A stretch of DNA of 64,000 nt from Sphingobium yanoikuyae. GTDB taxonomy: Bacteria > Pseudomonadota > Alphaproteobacteria > Sphingomonadales > Sphingomonadaceae. Positions 26,239-30,452 of the stretch are shown here, piece after piece (positions within the stretch are counted from its first letter, which is position 1; each line of letters opens with the position of its first letter). The position numbers and the translations under genes are program-made. Under the pieces are notes generated by a model. It was not told where the DNA came from. It worked only from the letters and a program-made list of their open reading frames with translations, and did no database searches. The stretch is taken from the NCBI RefSeq assembly GCF_013001025.1, contig NZ_CP053021.1, forward strand, positions 3,128,001 through 3,192,000, read 5' to 3'.

Positions 26239-26975
26239 GCCTGTTCCTTCCTCAAATCGCCCCGAAATTCGCCCAGCCCCCGGTCGGTGCCGCACAGCCG
26301 GTCCCAGACGCGAAAATAGAGGCCATAATTGCACCGATATTGCTCATGATGCCGCTGATGATGGCTGGCGGTGATCAGCCAGCGGCCGATCGGCCCGCGC
26401 ACCATCCAGCGCGGAAACATCTCCCATCCCATATGGTTGGACACGCCCATGATCGTCATGATCGACAGCACCACGCCCAGCGCGCCGACATGGATCGGGA
26501 TCAGGAAGACCAAAGCCGGGATCACCACCGCCCCGGTCAGCGCCTCCCACGGATGAAAGCTCATCGCCGCCCAGGCGGTCGGTGGCCGGCTCGCATGATG
26601 GACGGCATGGGCGATGCGGAACAGCCGGGGCACGTGCATCCACCGGTGCGTCCAGTAAAACCATGTGTCATGCGCGGCGAGATAGAGCAGCACCGACACC
26701 GGCAGATACCAGAGCGGATAGCGGCCGACATCCTCATAGATGCGCGTCCACCCCCGCGCCTGCCAGCCCCAGGCGACGACACCGGCGGGAATGCCATAGA
26801 TCGCCGCCGACGCCAGCGACCAGCCAATCTCCCGCCCGATCTGCCGCCCCTGCCCGCGATAGAGGCCCGGCTGCCGCAGCCTTGTCGCCAGCGCGAAACC
26901 GCCACTGGCAATCAGATAGCGCACCCCGACGATCAGCGTCATCGCCAGCGCGGACAAGAGGATCGCAGCGACCAT
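26235..26975 (-). CDS. Sterol desaturase/fatty acid hydroxylase family membrane protein
   Basis: 246-residue di-iron membrane oxygenase of the fatty acid hydroxylase superfamily. The histidine boxes are HDTWFYWTHRWMH (102-114), HAVHH (124-127 region), a single H141, and HHQRHH (205-210). Several transmembrane segments surround them. Members hydroxylate or desaturate lipids, carotenoids or sterols. In a sphingomonad, a sphingolipid or carotenoid substrate is plausible but not shown. It is coupled to the exported DUF2141 protein. Confidence 0.87.
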   Translation of the reverse strand: MVAAILLSALAMTLIVGVRYLIASGGFALATRLRQPGLYRGQGRQIGREIGWSLASAAIYGIPAGVVAWGWQARGWTRIYEDVGRYPLWYLPVSVLLYLAAHDTWFYWTHRWMHVPRLFRIAHAVHHASRPPTAWAAMSFHPWEALTGAVVIPALVFLIPIHVGALGVVLSIMTIMGVSNHMGWEMFPRWMVRGPIGRWLITASHHQRHHEQYRCNYGLYFRVWDRLCGTDRGLGEFRGDLRKEQA

Positions 26976-27105
26976 GGCGGGGCTATAGCGGCGATTGCGG
27001 GGGAGCGGAAGCGGAGGGGGAAACGGTTGGGCAGCGCCTGTTGGACATTAATTAGTGGCGTCAGACAGCCCCAAAGCGATCGCCTAATCCAGTGGTGACG
27101 GCTAA

Positions 27106-29094
27106 CTAGCCGGGTGCATTCGCGATAGCTTCAAAAACGGTTGGCAGCGCGACGGGGCAGAAAGGCGTGTGCTCTGATAACACATGCTCGATTACTGCTT
27201 TCACAAGTTCGCCTCTACCTCGATTCTTCCATTTGTTTAGTATCGGAAATTTTTCGGCGAGAGCAGCTTCAAGGGTATGGTCGTCGGCTTCAAGGTACGC
27301 GCGAAGAACGTTCCCTTTTGCTCCACCAAGGTAGGAGACTTCGACGCGATCTGTCTCATTGGGGAACACTTCCATCTGAATCGCATCGATCAGCCGTTGA
27401 AGCTCTAAAGGTCTAAGGCTCGGCGCTCCCGTGAAACGGTCGATGTCCTGAAGCCCTTCGGGAAGGCGTCGCTCCTTCATCAAAAGTAGAGCCACTAGAA
27501 GTGGGTCAAGAAGAACGTTCTCAATGCCATTTCGCTCACCGCCAGCCACGACCTTGATCCGATTTGTAGAAACCGCCTCCCCGTCCCAATCGATAATGCC
27601 GAAGATCGATGAGTTGCCAAGGCTGGCTAGGCGATCAACCGTCTGCTTGACGATAGTGCAGCCCGCATTGATTTCACCGTTGTCTTTGTCGCGCAATCCC
27701 GTCGACAGAAAGTTTAATTCGCGTTCGCATCGAGCGTGCGCCTTAATGAGTGCGTAAACACTTTCATAGATCGCGGCATCGGTATCGCTTTCCGCGAAAA
27801 CCTGCCTACGACCGGAATAGTTTATCGAAAGTGTCGGAACACCAAAGGTTAGCCTGTTGAGGGCATCTTGCTTGGAAATTTTGGTTAGCCCTGAGTGCCC
27901 ATCCCTCATCTCAAACAAAGATTCATCGGGAGCGAGAGCGACAGTGGTGGGCGAGTGCGTCGTTATAATGCAATGAAGACCTTGCGCTTCAACCAAACCA
28001 TGCTGGATCGCCCCAAGCCACCTATTAACCATTTCAGGATGAAGCGAAGCGTCCATCTCGTCCAACAACAGAATTTGCGGCCGTGACACCGACATGAAGT
28101 GCTCATCGTAATGGAATGAAGAGACTGCAAATTGCAGCAATACTTTCTCACCAGATGAGAGGTTTTGCGGGCTTACAACATCGCCCGTCCCTACCTTTTT
28201 GAGATTTACAGTGACTGGATCGAAATTAAAAAGGCTCGGTGGAGTGACTTCGTAAGGCAATGCGAACGCAGCGAGCGTCTCGTTTATTTGATCCCATGGC
28301 GGGCTACCAAAACTCGCTACAAAACCCTCTTCACTCATAGCGGTTTCTGTACCGCGCTCGGCGTCGCTCATTCGTAGCAGTCGGTTCTGGACAAGAGCGT
28401 CACGATATTTGCCGAACAAGAGCGGCAGATTAGTCGAGAACTGATCCGTATTGCCCCATGGCGCGAATAGCTTCATCTGCATCGTGTTCACATGCAAAGG
28501 TGGGATACCCAATTTCGCTGCGACCCGCTGCGCGACCGCCTGCATCTGCGCCGGCTGCATCCCCGGATTGCGTTGCATCATGCGTTGCGCCCCCTGATCG
28601 GGCGTTATCAACGCTCGCTCCGCTGCCACGAAAATAGCTTCGATCGGACTGGCATCCGCTTTGCCTAGCCTATGGGCGACCTCCTTTGCTCCAAGTCGCC
28701 AGACATCTTCTCCCGGCTGTAATATTTCCGAGAGCCGGTGATTTGCAGCTTCATCAAGCGACGCGCGCTGCGCAGCCAATAGGTTCAGCCGCGTTTGCTC
28801 GAAATTGCCCATCATGATCGACACGGGGTCGCCCCCGCCTTGCGCAGTGCTATAGGCTTGACCCAGGTCGAGTGCTCGACCATCCTGACCAAGAAGTTTT
28901 ATGAGCGGTTTGGCGTTACCATTAGGATCGGGCTGTGTTGCGACCACCGAATTAGCAACGCGACCACTAGCAATTGCCTGCAACAGATGACTCTTGCCGC
29001 TGCCATTAAGTCCAACAATCACCGTAAATGGGGGAATCTCTATATCGGGAAACGCCGATAAAGATAAATGCGGTTGCTTGAACGAAAGCTGCAC
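27106..29094 (-). CDS. ABC-type AAA ATPase with C-terminal TOPRIM/DUF4435-like domain (OLD/PARIS-like)
   Basis: 662 residues; GTG start with GAGGA eight to nine bases upstream. ATPase part: Walker A GLNGSGKS (28-35), ABC signature LSSGEK (312-317), Walker B ILLLDE (341-346) with DASLHPE, and the switch H380 in ITTHSPTT. The C-terminal part starts at about 425: FAESDTDA with E435, then GIIDWDG with D502 and D504, and NGIENVLLDP (523-531), which follow the order of TOPRIM/DUF4435 catalytic residues. OLD nucleases and PARIS proteins share this plan and act in anti-phage defence. Base and codon use are clearly less GC-rich than the neighbours, with TTA, ATA and AGA codons. No partner gene is adjacent. 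Confidence 0.85.
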   Translation of the reverse strand: MQLSFKQPHLSLSAFPDIEIPPFTVIVGLNGSGKSHLLQAIASGRVANSVVATQPDPNGNAKPLIKLLGQDGRALDLGQAYSTAQGGGDPVSIMMGNFEQTRLNLLAAQRASLDEAANHRLSEILQPGEDVWRLGAKEVAHRLGKADASPIEAIFVAAERALITPDQGAQRMMQRNPGMQPAQMQAVAQRVAAKLGIPPLHVNTMQMKLFAPWGNTDQFSTNLPLLFGKYRDALVQNRLLRMSDAERGTETAMSEEGFVASFGSPPWDQINETLAAFALPYEVTPPSLFNFDPVTVNLKKVGTGDVVSPQNLSSGEKVLLQFAVSSFHYDEHFMSVSRPQILLLDEMDASLHPEMVNRWLGAIQHGLVEAQGLHCIITTHSPTTVALAPDESLFEMRDGHSGLTKISKQDALNRLTFGVPTLSINYSGRRQVFAESDTDAAIYESVYALIKAHARCERELNFLSTGLRDKDNGEINAGCTIVKQTVDRLASLGNSSIFGIIDWDGEAVSTNRIKVVAGGERNGIENVLLDPLLVALLLMKERRLPEGLQDIDRFTGAPSLRPLELQRLIDAIQMEVFPNETDRVEVSYLGGAKGNVLRAYLEADDHTLEAALAEKFPILNKWKNRGRGELVKAVIEHVLSEHTPFCPVALPTVFEAIANAPG

Positions 29095-29561
29095 TCAACG
29101 AATCCTCAACTTAGAATTTTACCGTATTTTTACAGCAAGCATTGATGAGAGAAAGCTTCTTTGGTTACGTTGCGCCACAGCGGACATGTTACCGGGTGTG
29201 AATGGCCTCTTTTCTAAATTGACCACATTAAAACTGTCAGTCCGCAGTCAGCTCAATCCACCTCCGCTTTCCTACTCGCGCAATCTCTGATCTATCCTCC
29301 GCGATGGAGCAGCCGCGATCCCGCCCCTGCGCGCGCACCGATGCGCCGCCACCCCCGCAACCCAACAGGCGCGTCACCGTGCCCCTGGTGTCGCGTCGCC
29401 ATGACCCGGATGTGATCCAACAGGCGCGTCGGCGGCGCGTGGCAGGCGCGAAAAGGCCGCAAAACGCCGATAACGTCGCGTCACGACACTGTGAACTTCG
29501 CACCGTGACCCTGGAGCGACCCAGGCGTGACCCTGAAACCGCCCTTTATCGGGCGCGGCGG
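29095..29561. other. 467-bp gene-free stretch beside the AAA-TOPRIM gene
   Basis: No convincing gene on either strand. The first ~200 bp are AT-rich and continue the composition of the AAA-TOPRIM gene, so they probably hold its promoter (29100-29240, read on the minus strand). The remaining part returns to high GC and contains short repeated words: GCGTCAC, GTGACCC and the 14-mer noted separately. This may be the junction between an inserted segment and the old chromosome. Confidence 0.55.
29362..29430. repeat. Two direct copies of a 14-bp word
   Basis: CCAACAGGCGCGTC occurs at 29362-29375 and 29417-29430, a 55-bp period. Related TGACCC words follow at 29402, 29504 and 29528. The function is unknown; it could be a binding-site pair or a relic of recombination at the island edge. 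Confidence 0.55.
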
Positions 29562-30452
29562 TCAGGTGCGGGGGCGGGCTTGGCGGTAGCTGCCCAGCAC
29601 GCGCACCCATTTGGTGTGGAATTCCAGCTCGGCGAGCGCGCGGTCGACCGCCGGGTCACCCGGCATCCCTTCGATATCGCAATAGAATTCGGTCGCGGCA
29701 AAGCTGGCGCCGCGCTGGTAGCTTTCCAGCTTGGTCATGTTGACGCCATTGGTCGCAAAGCCGCCCATCGCCTTGTAGAGCGCGGCCGGGATATTCTTCA
29801 CCTCGAACAGGAAGGTGGTCATGACCGGGCCGACGCCAGCCGCCGGCGCCTTGGGCTCGCGCGCCAGCACCAGGAAGCGGGTCATATTGTCGTCGCTATC
29901 CTCGATATTCTCGGCGATCAGGCGCAGGCCATAGATTTCGGCGGCCAGATAGGGGGCGATCGCTCCCTCGCCCGGCGCCCGCGTCTCCGCCACCAGCGCG
30001 GCGGCGCCGGCGGTGTCGGCATAGGCGACCGGCTGGATGCCGCGCTCGCGCAGATAATGGCGGCACTGGCCCAGCGCCTGCGGATGGCTGATCGCGCTCT
30101 TCACCGGCACCGTGTCGGGCGCCATCAGGCAGTGGCGGATGCGCAGGAAATATTCGTCGACGATGTGCAGCCCGGATTCGGGCAGCAGGAAATGCATGTC
30201 GGCGACGCGGCCGTGCAGGCTGTTCTCGATCGGAATGATCGCCCGGGCGGCAAGGCCACCCCGCACAGCGTCGATCGCATCCTCGAACGCAAAGCAGGGC
30301 AGCGGCACGCAATCGGGGGCGTAGCCAAGCGCGGCCAGGTGCGAATTGGCACCGGGCGCGCCCTGATAGGCGACGGCGCGCGCCGGATCGGCAGCGGCCT
30401 TTTGCGACATGTCGGCGACCAGCGCGCGAGCGGGGGCGGGATAATTTTCCAT
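29562..30452 (-). CDS. pheA: Prephenate dehydratase
   Basis: 296 residues from ATG 30452; the frame is open to 30539 but that extension is not conserved-looking. Catalytic domain: AYQGAPGANSHLAAL, PIENSLHGRV and the DNMTRFLVLA motif (TRF) needed for decarboxylation/dehydration of prephenate to phenylpyruvate. The C-terminal ACT domain (GFATNGVNMTKLESYQR) binds phenylalanine for feedback control. There is no chorismate mutase domain, as is usual in Alphaproteobacteria. It is divergent from the cytochrome c gene, a frequent alphaproteobacterial arrangement. Confidence 0.96.
   Translation of the reverse strand: MENYPAPARALVADMSQKAAADPARAVAYQGAPGANSHLAALGYAPDCVPLPCFAFEDAIDAVRGGLAARAIIPIENSLHGRVADMHFLLPESGLHIVDEYFLRIRHCLMAPDTVPVKSAISHPQALGQCRHYLRERGIQPVAYADTAGAAALVAETRAPGEGAIAPYLAAEIYGLRLIAENIEDSDDNMTRFLVLAREPKAPAAGVGPVMTTFLFEVKNIPAALYKAMGGFATNGVNMTKLESYQRGASFAATEFYCDIEGMPGDPAVDRALAELEFHTKWVRVLGSYRQARPRT

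Follow-up and report, generated by a model that had tools for sequence, protein, structure and literature searches.

What might a lone gene of foreign base composition contribute to the chromosome of a sphingomonad? We analyzed a 64,000-nucleotide stretch of Sphingobium yanoikuyae (assembly GCF_013001025.1, contig NZ_CP053021.1, positions 3,128,001 to 3,192,000), hereafter the window, in which a single gene (27106..29094, minus strand) encodes an ABC-type ATPase fused to a TOPRIM domain. This gene is probably a horizontally acquired single-gene anti-phage system, encoding a divergent fused AriA-AriB-like protein with an effector fold closest to AriB of the PARIS system. What is shown here is its anatomy, predicted fold, conserved acidic residues, sporadic distribution and residence in a slot with other defense-type occupants. 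The best support for defense is the slot context, which lies outside the coordinates of the fusion gene itself.

Anatomy and base composition of the fusion gene

The fusion gene starts with GTG and encodes 662 residues, for which the AF2 model has a pLDDT of 90.2. The preliminary description of this locus proposed an intact ABC-type ATPase, and all motifs are intact, on the minus strand: the Walker A P-loop GLNGSGKS (residues 28-35; 28990..29013), the ABC signature LSSGE (312-316; 28147..28161), the Walker B ILLLDEMD (341-348; 28051..28074) and the H-loop THSPTT (379-384; 27943..27960). Key residues G28, G33, K34, S313, G315, D345, E346 and H380 are invariant across a 96-row alignment. The C-terminal AriB/DUF4435-type TOPRIM domain (residues 418-662; 27109..27843, minus strand) carries E435 (27790..27792), D502-W503-D504 (27583..27591) and an IEN motif (524-526; 27517..27525), likewise on the minus strand. 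All 63 aligned rows share E435, D502 and D504, and N526 is present in 61 of them. These rows are the window protein and 62 open reading frames (ORFs) reaching profile position 600, out of 75 matching loci, with a few rows duplicating one locus present twice. The order E, D-x-D, IEN matches that of DUF4435 proteins, as had been noted earlier.

The gene stands apart in composition. Scanning the whole window (mean GC 65.6%) in 250-bp steps, GC falls below 59% only in 1-kb windows starting from 26751 to 28751. The GC of the fusion gene is 0.527; its third-position GC (0.54) and codon-similarity index (0.26) compare with 0.80-0.92 and 0.61-0.83, respectively, in ten of the other window genes. The lower GC claimed in the preliminary description thus holds across the window, and the deviant codon use holds against those ten genes. 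The window yielded no tRNA genes.

A variable slot with defense-type cargoes

The fusion gene occupies a variable slot (27021..29265, no strand). Three of the closest genomes (G226, G219 and G215) align to the window with 92.6-97.1% identity on both sides, and their synteny with it is lost between identical borders, at 27019-27020 on the left and 29264-29267 on the right; a fourth genome (G247) was compared likewise. The left flank is a fatty acid hydroxylase gene (PF04116; 26235..26975, minus strand) and the right flank a prephenate dehydratase gene (PF00800; 29562..30539, minus strand), the latter present in 93 of the 94 genomes from the genus. Prephenate dehydratase is 98-100% identical among the host (G000) and these four genomes, with the best of the rest at 94%. 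Identity between the window and the four genomes ranges from 94-99% in the 3 kb to the left, through 89-95% in the bin of the border element described below, to 96-99% in the next 1 kb.

The five genomes carry five different defense-type cargoes between common borders (loci including L126, L127, L128 and L133). The slot of G226 encodes a 569-residue protein with an Mrr_cat nuclease (PADLOC type IV, 7e-67). G219 carries a GmrSD_N/DUF262 protein (PADLOC NsnA 4e-55, PD-T4-2_A 8e-36) and a second ORF with a HEPN domain (Pfam 1e-16, no PADLOC match) that is apparently truncated by an insertion sequence. G215 has a TIR ORF (TIR-TM 1e-68, over 150 of 293 positions), apparently interrupted by an insertion sequence as well. 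The cargo of G247 is a two-gene PARIS, consisting of an AriA-like ATPase (1.7e-36; best PDB match AriA, 6.8e-14) and an AriB/DUF4435 protein (3.4e-7; Pfam 1.4e-5, marginally below cut-off). Among the listed slot ORFs we noticed no integrase, and two slots contain insertion-sequence transposases.

Most congeners with both flanking genes side by side have just a short gap at this position. Our survey covered the host and 84 fetched loci, of 94 same-genus genomes; the remaining nine are one genome with no match (G278), one with the slot off the contig (G254), one that is 60% complete (G223) and six with more distant copies. The hydroxylase gene lies beside prephenate dehydratase in 59 of 85 genomes, with a gap of 33-205 bp in 54 (median 79) and of 2.6-3.3 kb in five. 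The other 26 have no hydroxylase neighbor in the fetched stretch, some owing to a contig end. The locus has the properties of a defense hotspot, namely constant core flanks and a cargo that varies among relatives and includes defense genes. Core-gene defense hotspots have reportedly been described in P. aeruginosa as well as in E. coli. Those of E. coli have fixed core flanks, variable defense cargo and often unclear mobility (PMC10121019, in excerpt). The Sphingobium slot resembles the hotspots of both species in flanks and cargo, but differs in holding one system and in having a clade-specific dispersed element as one border. No report of a Sphingobium defense hotspot, or of Sphingomonas together with PARIS, was among the literature matches listed.

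Family assignment by profile and fold

PARIS likewise combines an ABC ATPase with a TOPRIM protein (AriA and AriB), and a fused single-gene form, AriAB, has been published (Rousset 2022; PMC9122126, in excerpt); the fusion threshold of 20 bits given there applies to the authors' own profile. The window protein exceeds the Pfam cut-offs for AAA_21 (64.3 bits, cut-off 27) and AAA_15 (34.9 bits, cut-off 32.1), and whole-protein searches of Pfam, NCBIfam, PADLOC and PHROGs mostly detect the ATPase part. The fused AriAB profile PDLC02981 matches collinearly (residues 304-540 to profile 302-533), but four other PADLOC profiles, listed below, score higher. A second fused profile, PDLC02982, is not among the 25 PADLOC matches listed for the window protein and was not found at E ≤ 1e-8 in four relatives with complete match lists; at E ≤ 0.1 it fits two of the 49 C termini from relatives. 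A fusion at another locus (L233) reaches 365 bits to PDLC02982 with a length of only 559 residues.

The C terminus was folded alone because ATPase heads filled the fold searches with the whole model. The predicted structure has an AriB-like TOPRIM fold with the acidic triad in place, which agrees with the earlier expectation. By alignment of Foldseek candidates (VIA-align), the nearest fold is AriB. Searching PDB sequences with a profile of the C terminus returned nothing relevant. The profile comparison suggested earlier gave a divided result: DUF4435 was detected in 11 of 49 C-terminal relatives at E ≤ 0.1 and not in the window protein itself. The protein differs from PARIS in this respect, and also in being fused, with no simple release of the effector. 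AbiL and MADS pair an ABC ATPase with a TOPRIM protein too (PMC12409363, in excerpt), and their ATPase profiles show similarity, but the window protein is one chain and no second gene was seen.

Distribution and neighborhoods of relatives

Relatives are sporadic. At the family level, matches of some kind occur in 24 of 199 genomes, and only the host and one other genome (G155) stand far above the generic ATPase background. At the genus level, six of 61 genomes match; the real relatives are the host, G206 (40% identity) and G215 (33%), and the other three matches are weak and partial. The relative in G215 (L131) lies outside the slot, and apparently the same locus is present in IMG/VR as a virus contig (L087). 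Elsewhere, relatives occur at no fewer than 29 loci (at least) in the public genome set, on 45 IMG/VR contigs and on four plasmids. On a Croceicoccus plasmid (NZ_CP019604.1; L240), a relative of 37% identity is preceded by the genes of a type I restriction-modification system, among which lie an IS5 transposase and a Fic gene. A system induced by anti-restriction would fit such a neighborhood. A second plasmid relative sits between two TIR genes with an integrase nearby. The survey of homologue neighborhoods suggested earlier revealed no constant neighbor, each family being limited to at most 7 of 75 loci, in a sample biased by many loci from the virus collection and by mechanical ORF calling. 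Recurring neighbor families are, by reading of their sequences, mostly phage-like, methyltransferase-like or integrase-like, and small groups of prophage-like loci (e.g., L111, L114, L115 and L118) have a common adjacent gene.

A dispersed element at the slot border

The right border of the slot is a copy of a dispersed element of about 254 bp (29266..29502, plus strand; 5' end CTTTCCTACTC). The host has 15 element matches, the other four genomes 19-21 each and eight other congeners 0-3; matches are not equal to copies, as some copies yield two and 40 candidates were scored per genome. A 254-position profile built from nine host copies detects the element, sometimes partially, at all 52 other sites fetched (12 in the host, 20 each in G226 and G247; L221-L232, L248-L287), which were picked from element matches and show the extent of the element rather than its frequency. 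A plasmid search returned one partial match (55%, 72% identity), in Sphingobium sp. V4.

Most synteny breaks coincide with the 5' end. Across 14 comparable orthologous sites including the slot, synteny breaks at the 5' end in nine, at the 3' end in one and unclearly in one, and is uninterrupted in all pairs at three. Among the nine, the far flank was not found at one and the variable part is below 0.7 kb at two. With the slot excluded, 138 block ends lie between -5000 and +5500 relative to the element; 30 of them fall within -50 to +10 of the 5' end and four within 30 bp of the 3' end, against an expectation of 0.66 per 50-bp bin; these counts include each pair in both directions and should be halved. 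Variable contents at the other sites span 0.2-2 kb, or about 5 kb where the order of genes suggests an inversion, with a GC of 0.52-0.68 and comprise, by reading of sequences, small unknown ORFs, a ParDE-like pair and ordinary- or metabolic-looking genes. Neighbors at the 12 other host sites are mostly ordinary-looking. At a second site (L230, 6444-7322; also L244), the content differs among the host, G226, G219 and G247, and G215 has, at another locus (C7:249262-250394), a stretch with 97% identity to the host content. At another site (L232, L260, L284), genes named by reading as carotenoid-type occupy about 4-5 kb by the 5' end in opposite orientation in the host compared to G226 and G247, which points to an inversion adjoining the element. 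Short similar stretches around GGTCGCTTCC precede the 5' end of several copies (e.g., L222, L230 and L232) and are perhaps a second small repeat family.

We tentatively suggest, as a possible though rather doubtful scenario, that the element is the fixed border of a clade-peculiar, integrase-poor cassette exchange, in which DNA is repeatedly installed at the 5' end (CTTTCCTACTC) genome-wide. Selection would filter the cargo of the prephenate dehydratase slot to single anti-phage systems, and the ATPase-TOPRIM gene would be one such cassette, fused, PARIS-like and activating without nuclease release. More simply, the element could be well conserved while adjoining intergenic DNA turns over fast. 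An integron was considered as well. The integron integrase TIGR02249 exceeds its cut-off in one of the five clade genomes (G219, contig C2) and not in the host, and each of the 14 control genomes also gives weak matches; exchange driven by IntI is unsupported across the clade because G219 alone passes the cut-off. An RNA reading was also set aside, as the predicted RNA fold of the element is unremarkable (z -1.6) and 26900-29700 gave no Rfam match at E values up to 1. Nothing on point about such a dispersed repeat was among the literature matches listed.

Alternative explanations

Several observations weigh against a PARIS-like defense gene. DUF4435 (PF14491) is absent among the nine Pfam families matching the window protein at E ≤ 10. 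In PADLOC, AriA (67.6 bits), ATPase-Toprim_I-B (65.6), mad3 (62.4) and AbiLi (56.4) all score above fused AriAB (52.3). Foldseek finds no PDB match for the C terminus at E ≤ 0.001, the best being OLD at 0.026, and PtuA and SMC heads match the ATPase half about as well as AriA. Relatives occur in 0 of 50,697 phage records, the IMG/VR matches come from a collection that is viral by choice, and two of the four plasmid relatives have, in incomplete gene tables, no adjoining restriction or defense gene, only toxin-antitoxin genes about 6-9 kb away. An OLD-family nuclease (class 2, GajA-like), which nicks or degrades DNA rather than tRNA, would share the one-chain layout of ABC ATPase and TOPRIM seen in OLD and Gabija GajA. 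We consider it unlikely, though the foremost competitor: AriB scores about 3 Z higher in two entries, and the OLD-type TOPRIM (PF20469) has no match in the window protein, with OLD-like_TOPRIM in just one of the 49 relatives (E 0.089) compared to 11 for DUF4435. The retron profile named above also scores 54-83 bits in nine relatives, and type I-B retron effectors have a like ATPase-TOPRIM layout. Such an effector needs a reverse transcriptase and msDNA, however, and neither the host genome nor any of 25 virus records that contain relatives, which may be fragments, gave an RVT_1 match. RVT_1 lies on another contig than the relative in G215, and more than 900 kb away or on other contigs in G206. 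A retron effector is thus largely refuted and the least probable reading.

The fusion protein could also be a chromosomal ATPase of DNA repair or housekeeping, akin to RecF or SMC, given an SMC_N match below cut-off, weak RecF matches and the SMC heads among structural matches. This is highly improbable with real relatives in just three of 61 same-genus genomes, a foreign base composition and other systems in the slot of the relatives. No conserved presence among relatives was seen. Slot cargo need not always be defense because other element-adjoining slots carry the mixed contents described above, and the gene might be a passenger without a defense role, for example a selfish gene. We regard this as improbable, since the other four occupants of the slot are all defense-type and the catalytic residues are invariant across distant relatives.

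Proposed mechanism and significance

PARIS responds to a phage anti-restriction protein. In its two-gene form, AriB is kept sequestered by a hexamer of AriA until a phage trigger sets it free, and it then cuts tRNA through a two-metal TOPRIM site (PMC12409363). For the fused protein we infer defense activity, trigger, substrate and outcome. ATP-bound ATPase heads would oligomerize and keep the TOPRIM nuclease inactive until a phage-made trigger acts on the ATPase and induces a conformational change. The TOPRIM site (E435, D502 and D504 with Mg2+) might then cleave an essential nucleic acid, with tRNA, the target of AriB, as the likeliest substrate, leading to growth arrest and a stop of phage growth. 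Sensor and nuclease form one chain, which leaves no simple effector release as in two-gene PARIS, and activation would therefore proceed by rearrangement inside the oligomer. The earlier reading of the fused gene as a candidate defense system finds partial support in the defense-type cargo of the slot and the PARIS-like fold.

A 2023 review considered it unclear whether fused AriAB represents a separate OLD class or works differently (PMC10568477, in excerpt). The fused PARIS-like gene and the two-gene PARIS, found in one slot of one clade, form a natural matched pair on the question of effector release. The clade-specific border repeat deserves separate study. Taken together with this repeat, the slot may offer a tractable way to learn how chromosomal defense genes without mobility genes are exchanged.
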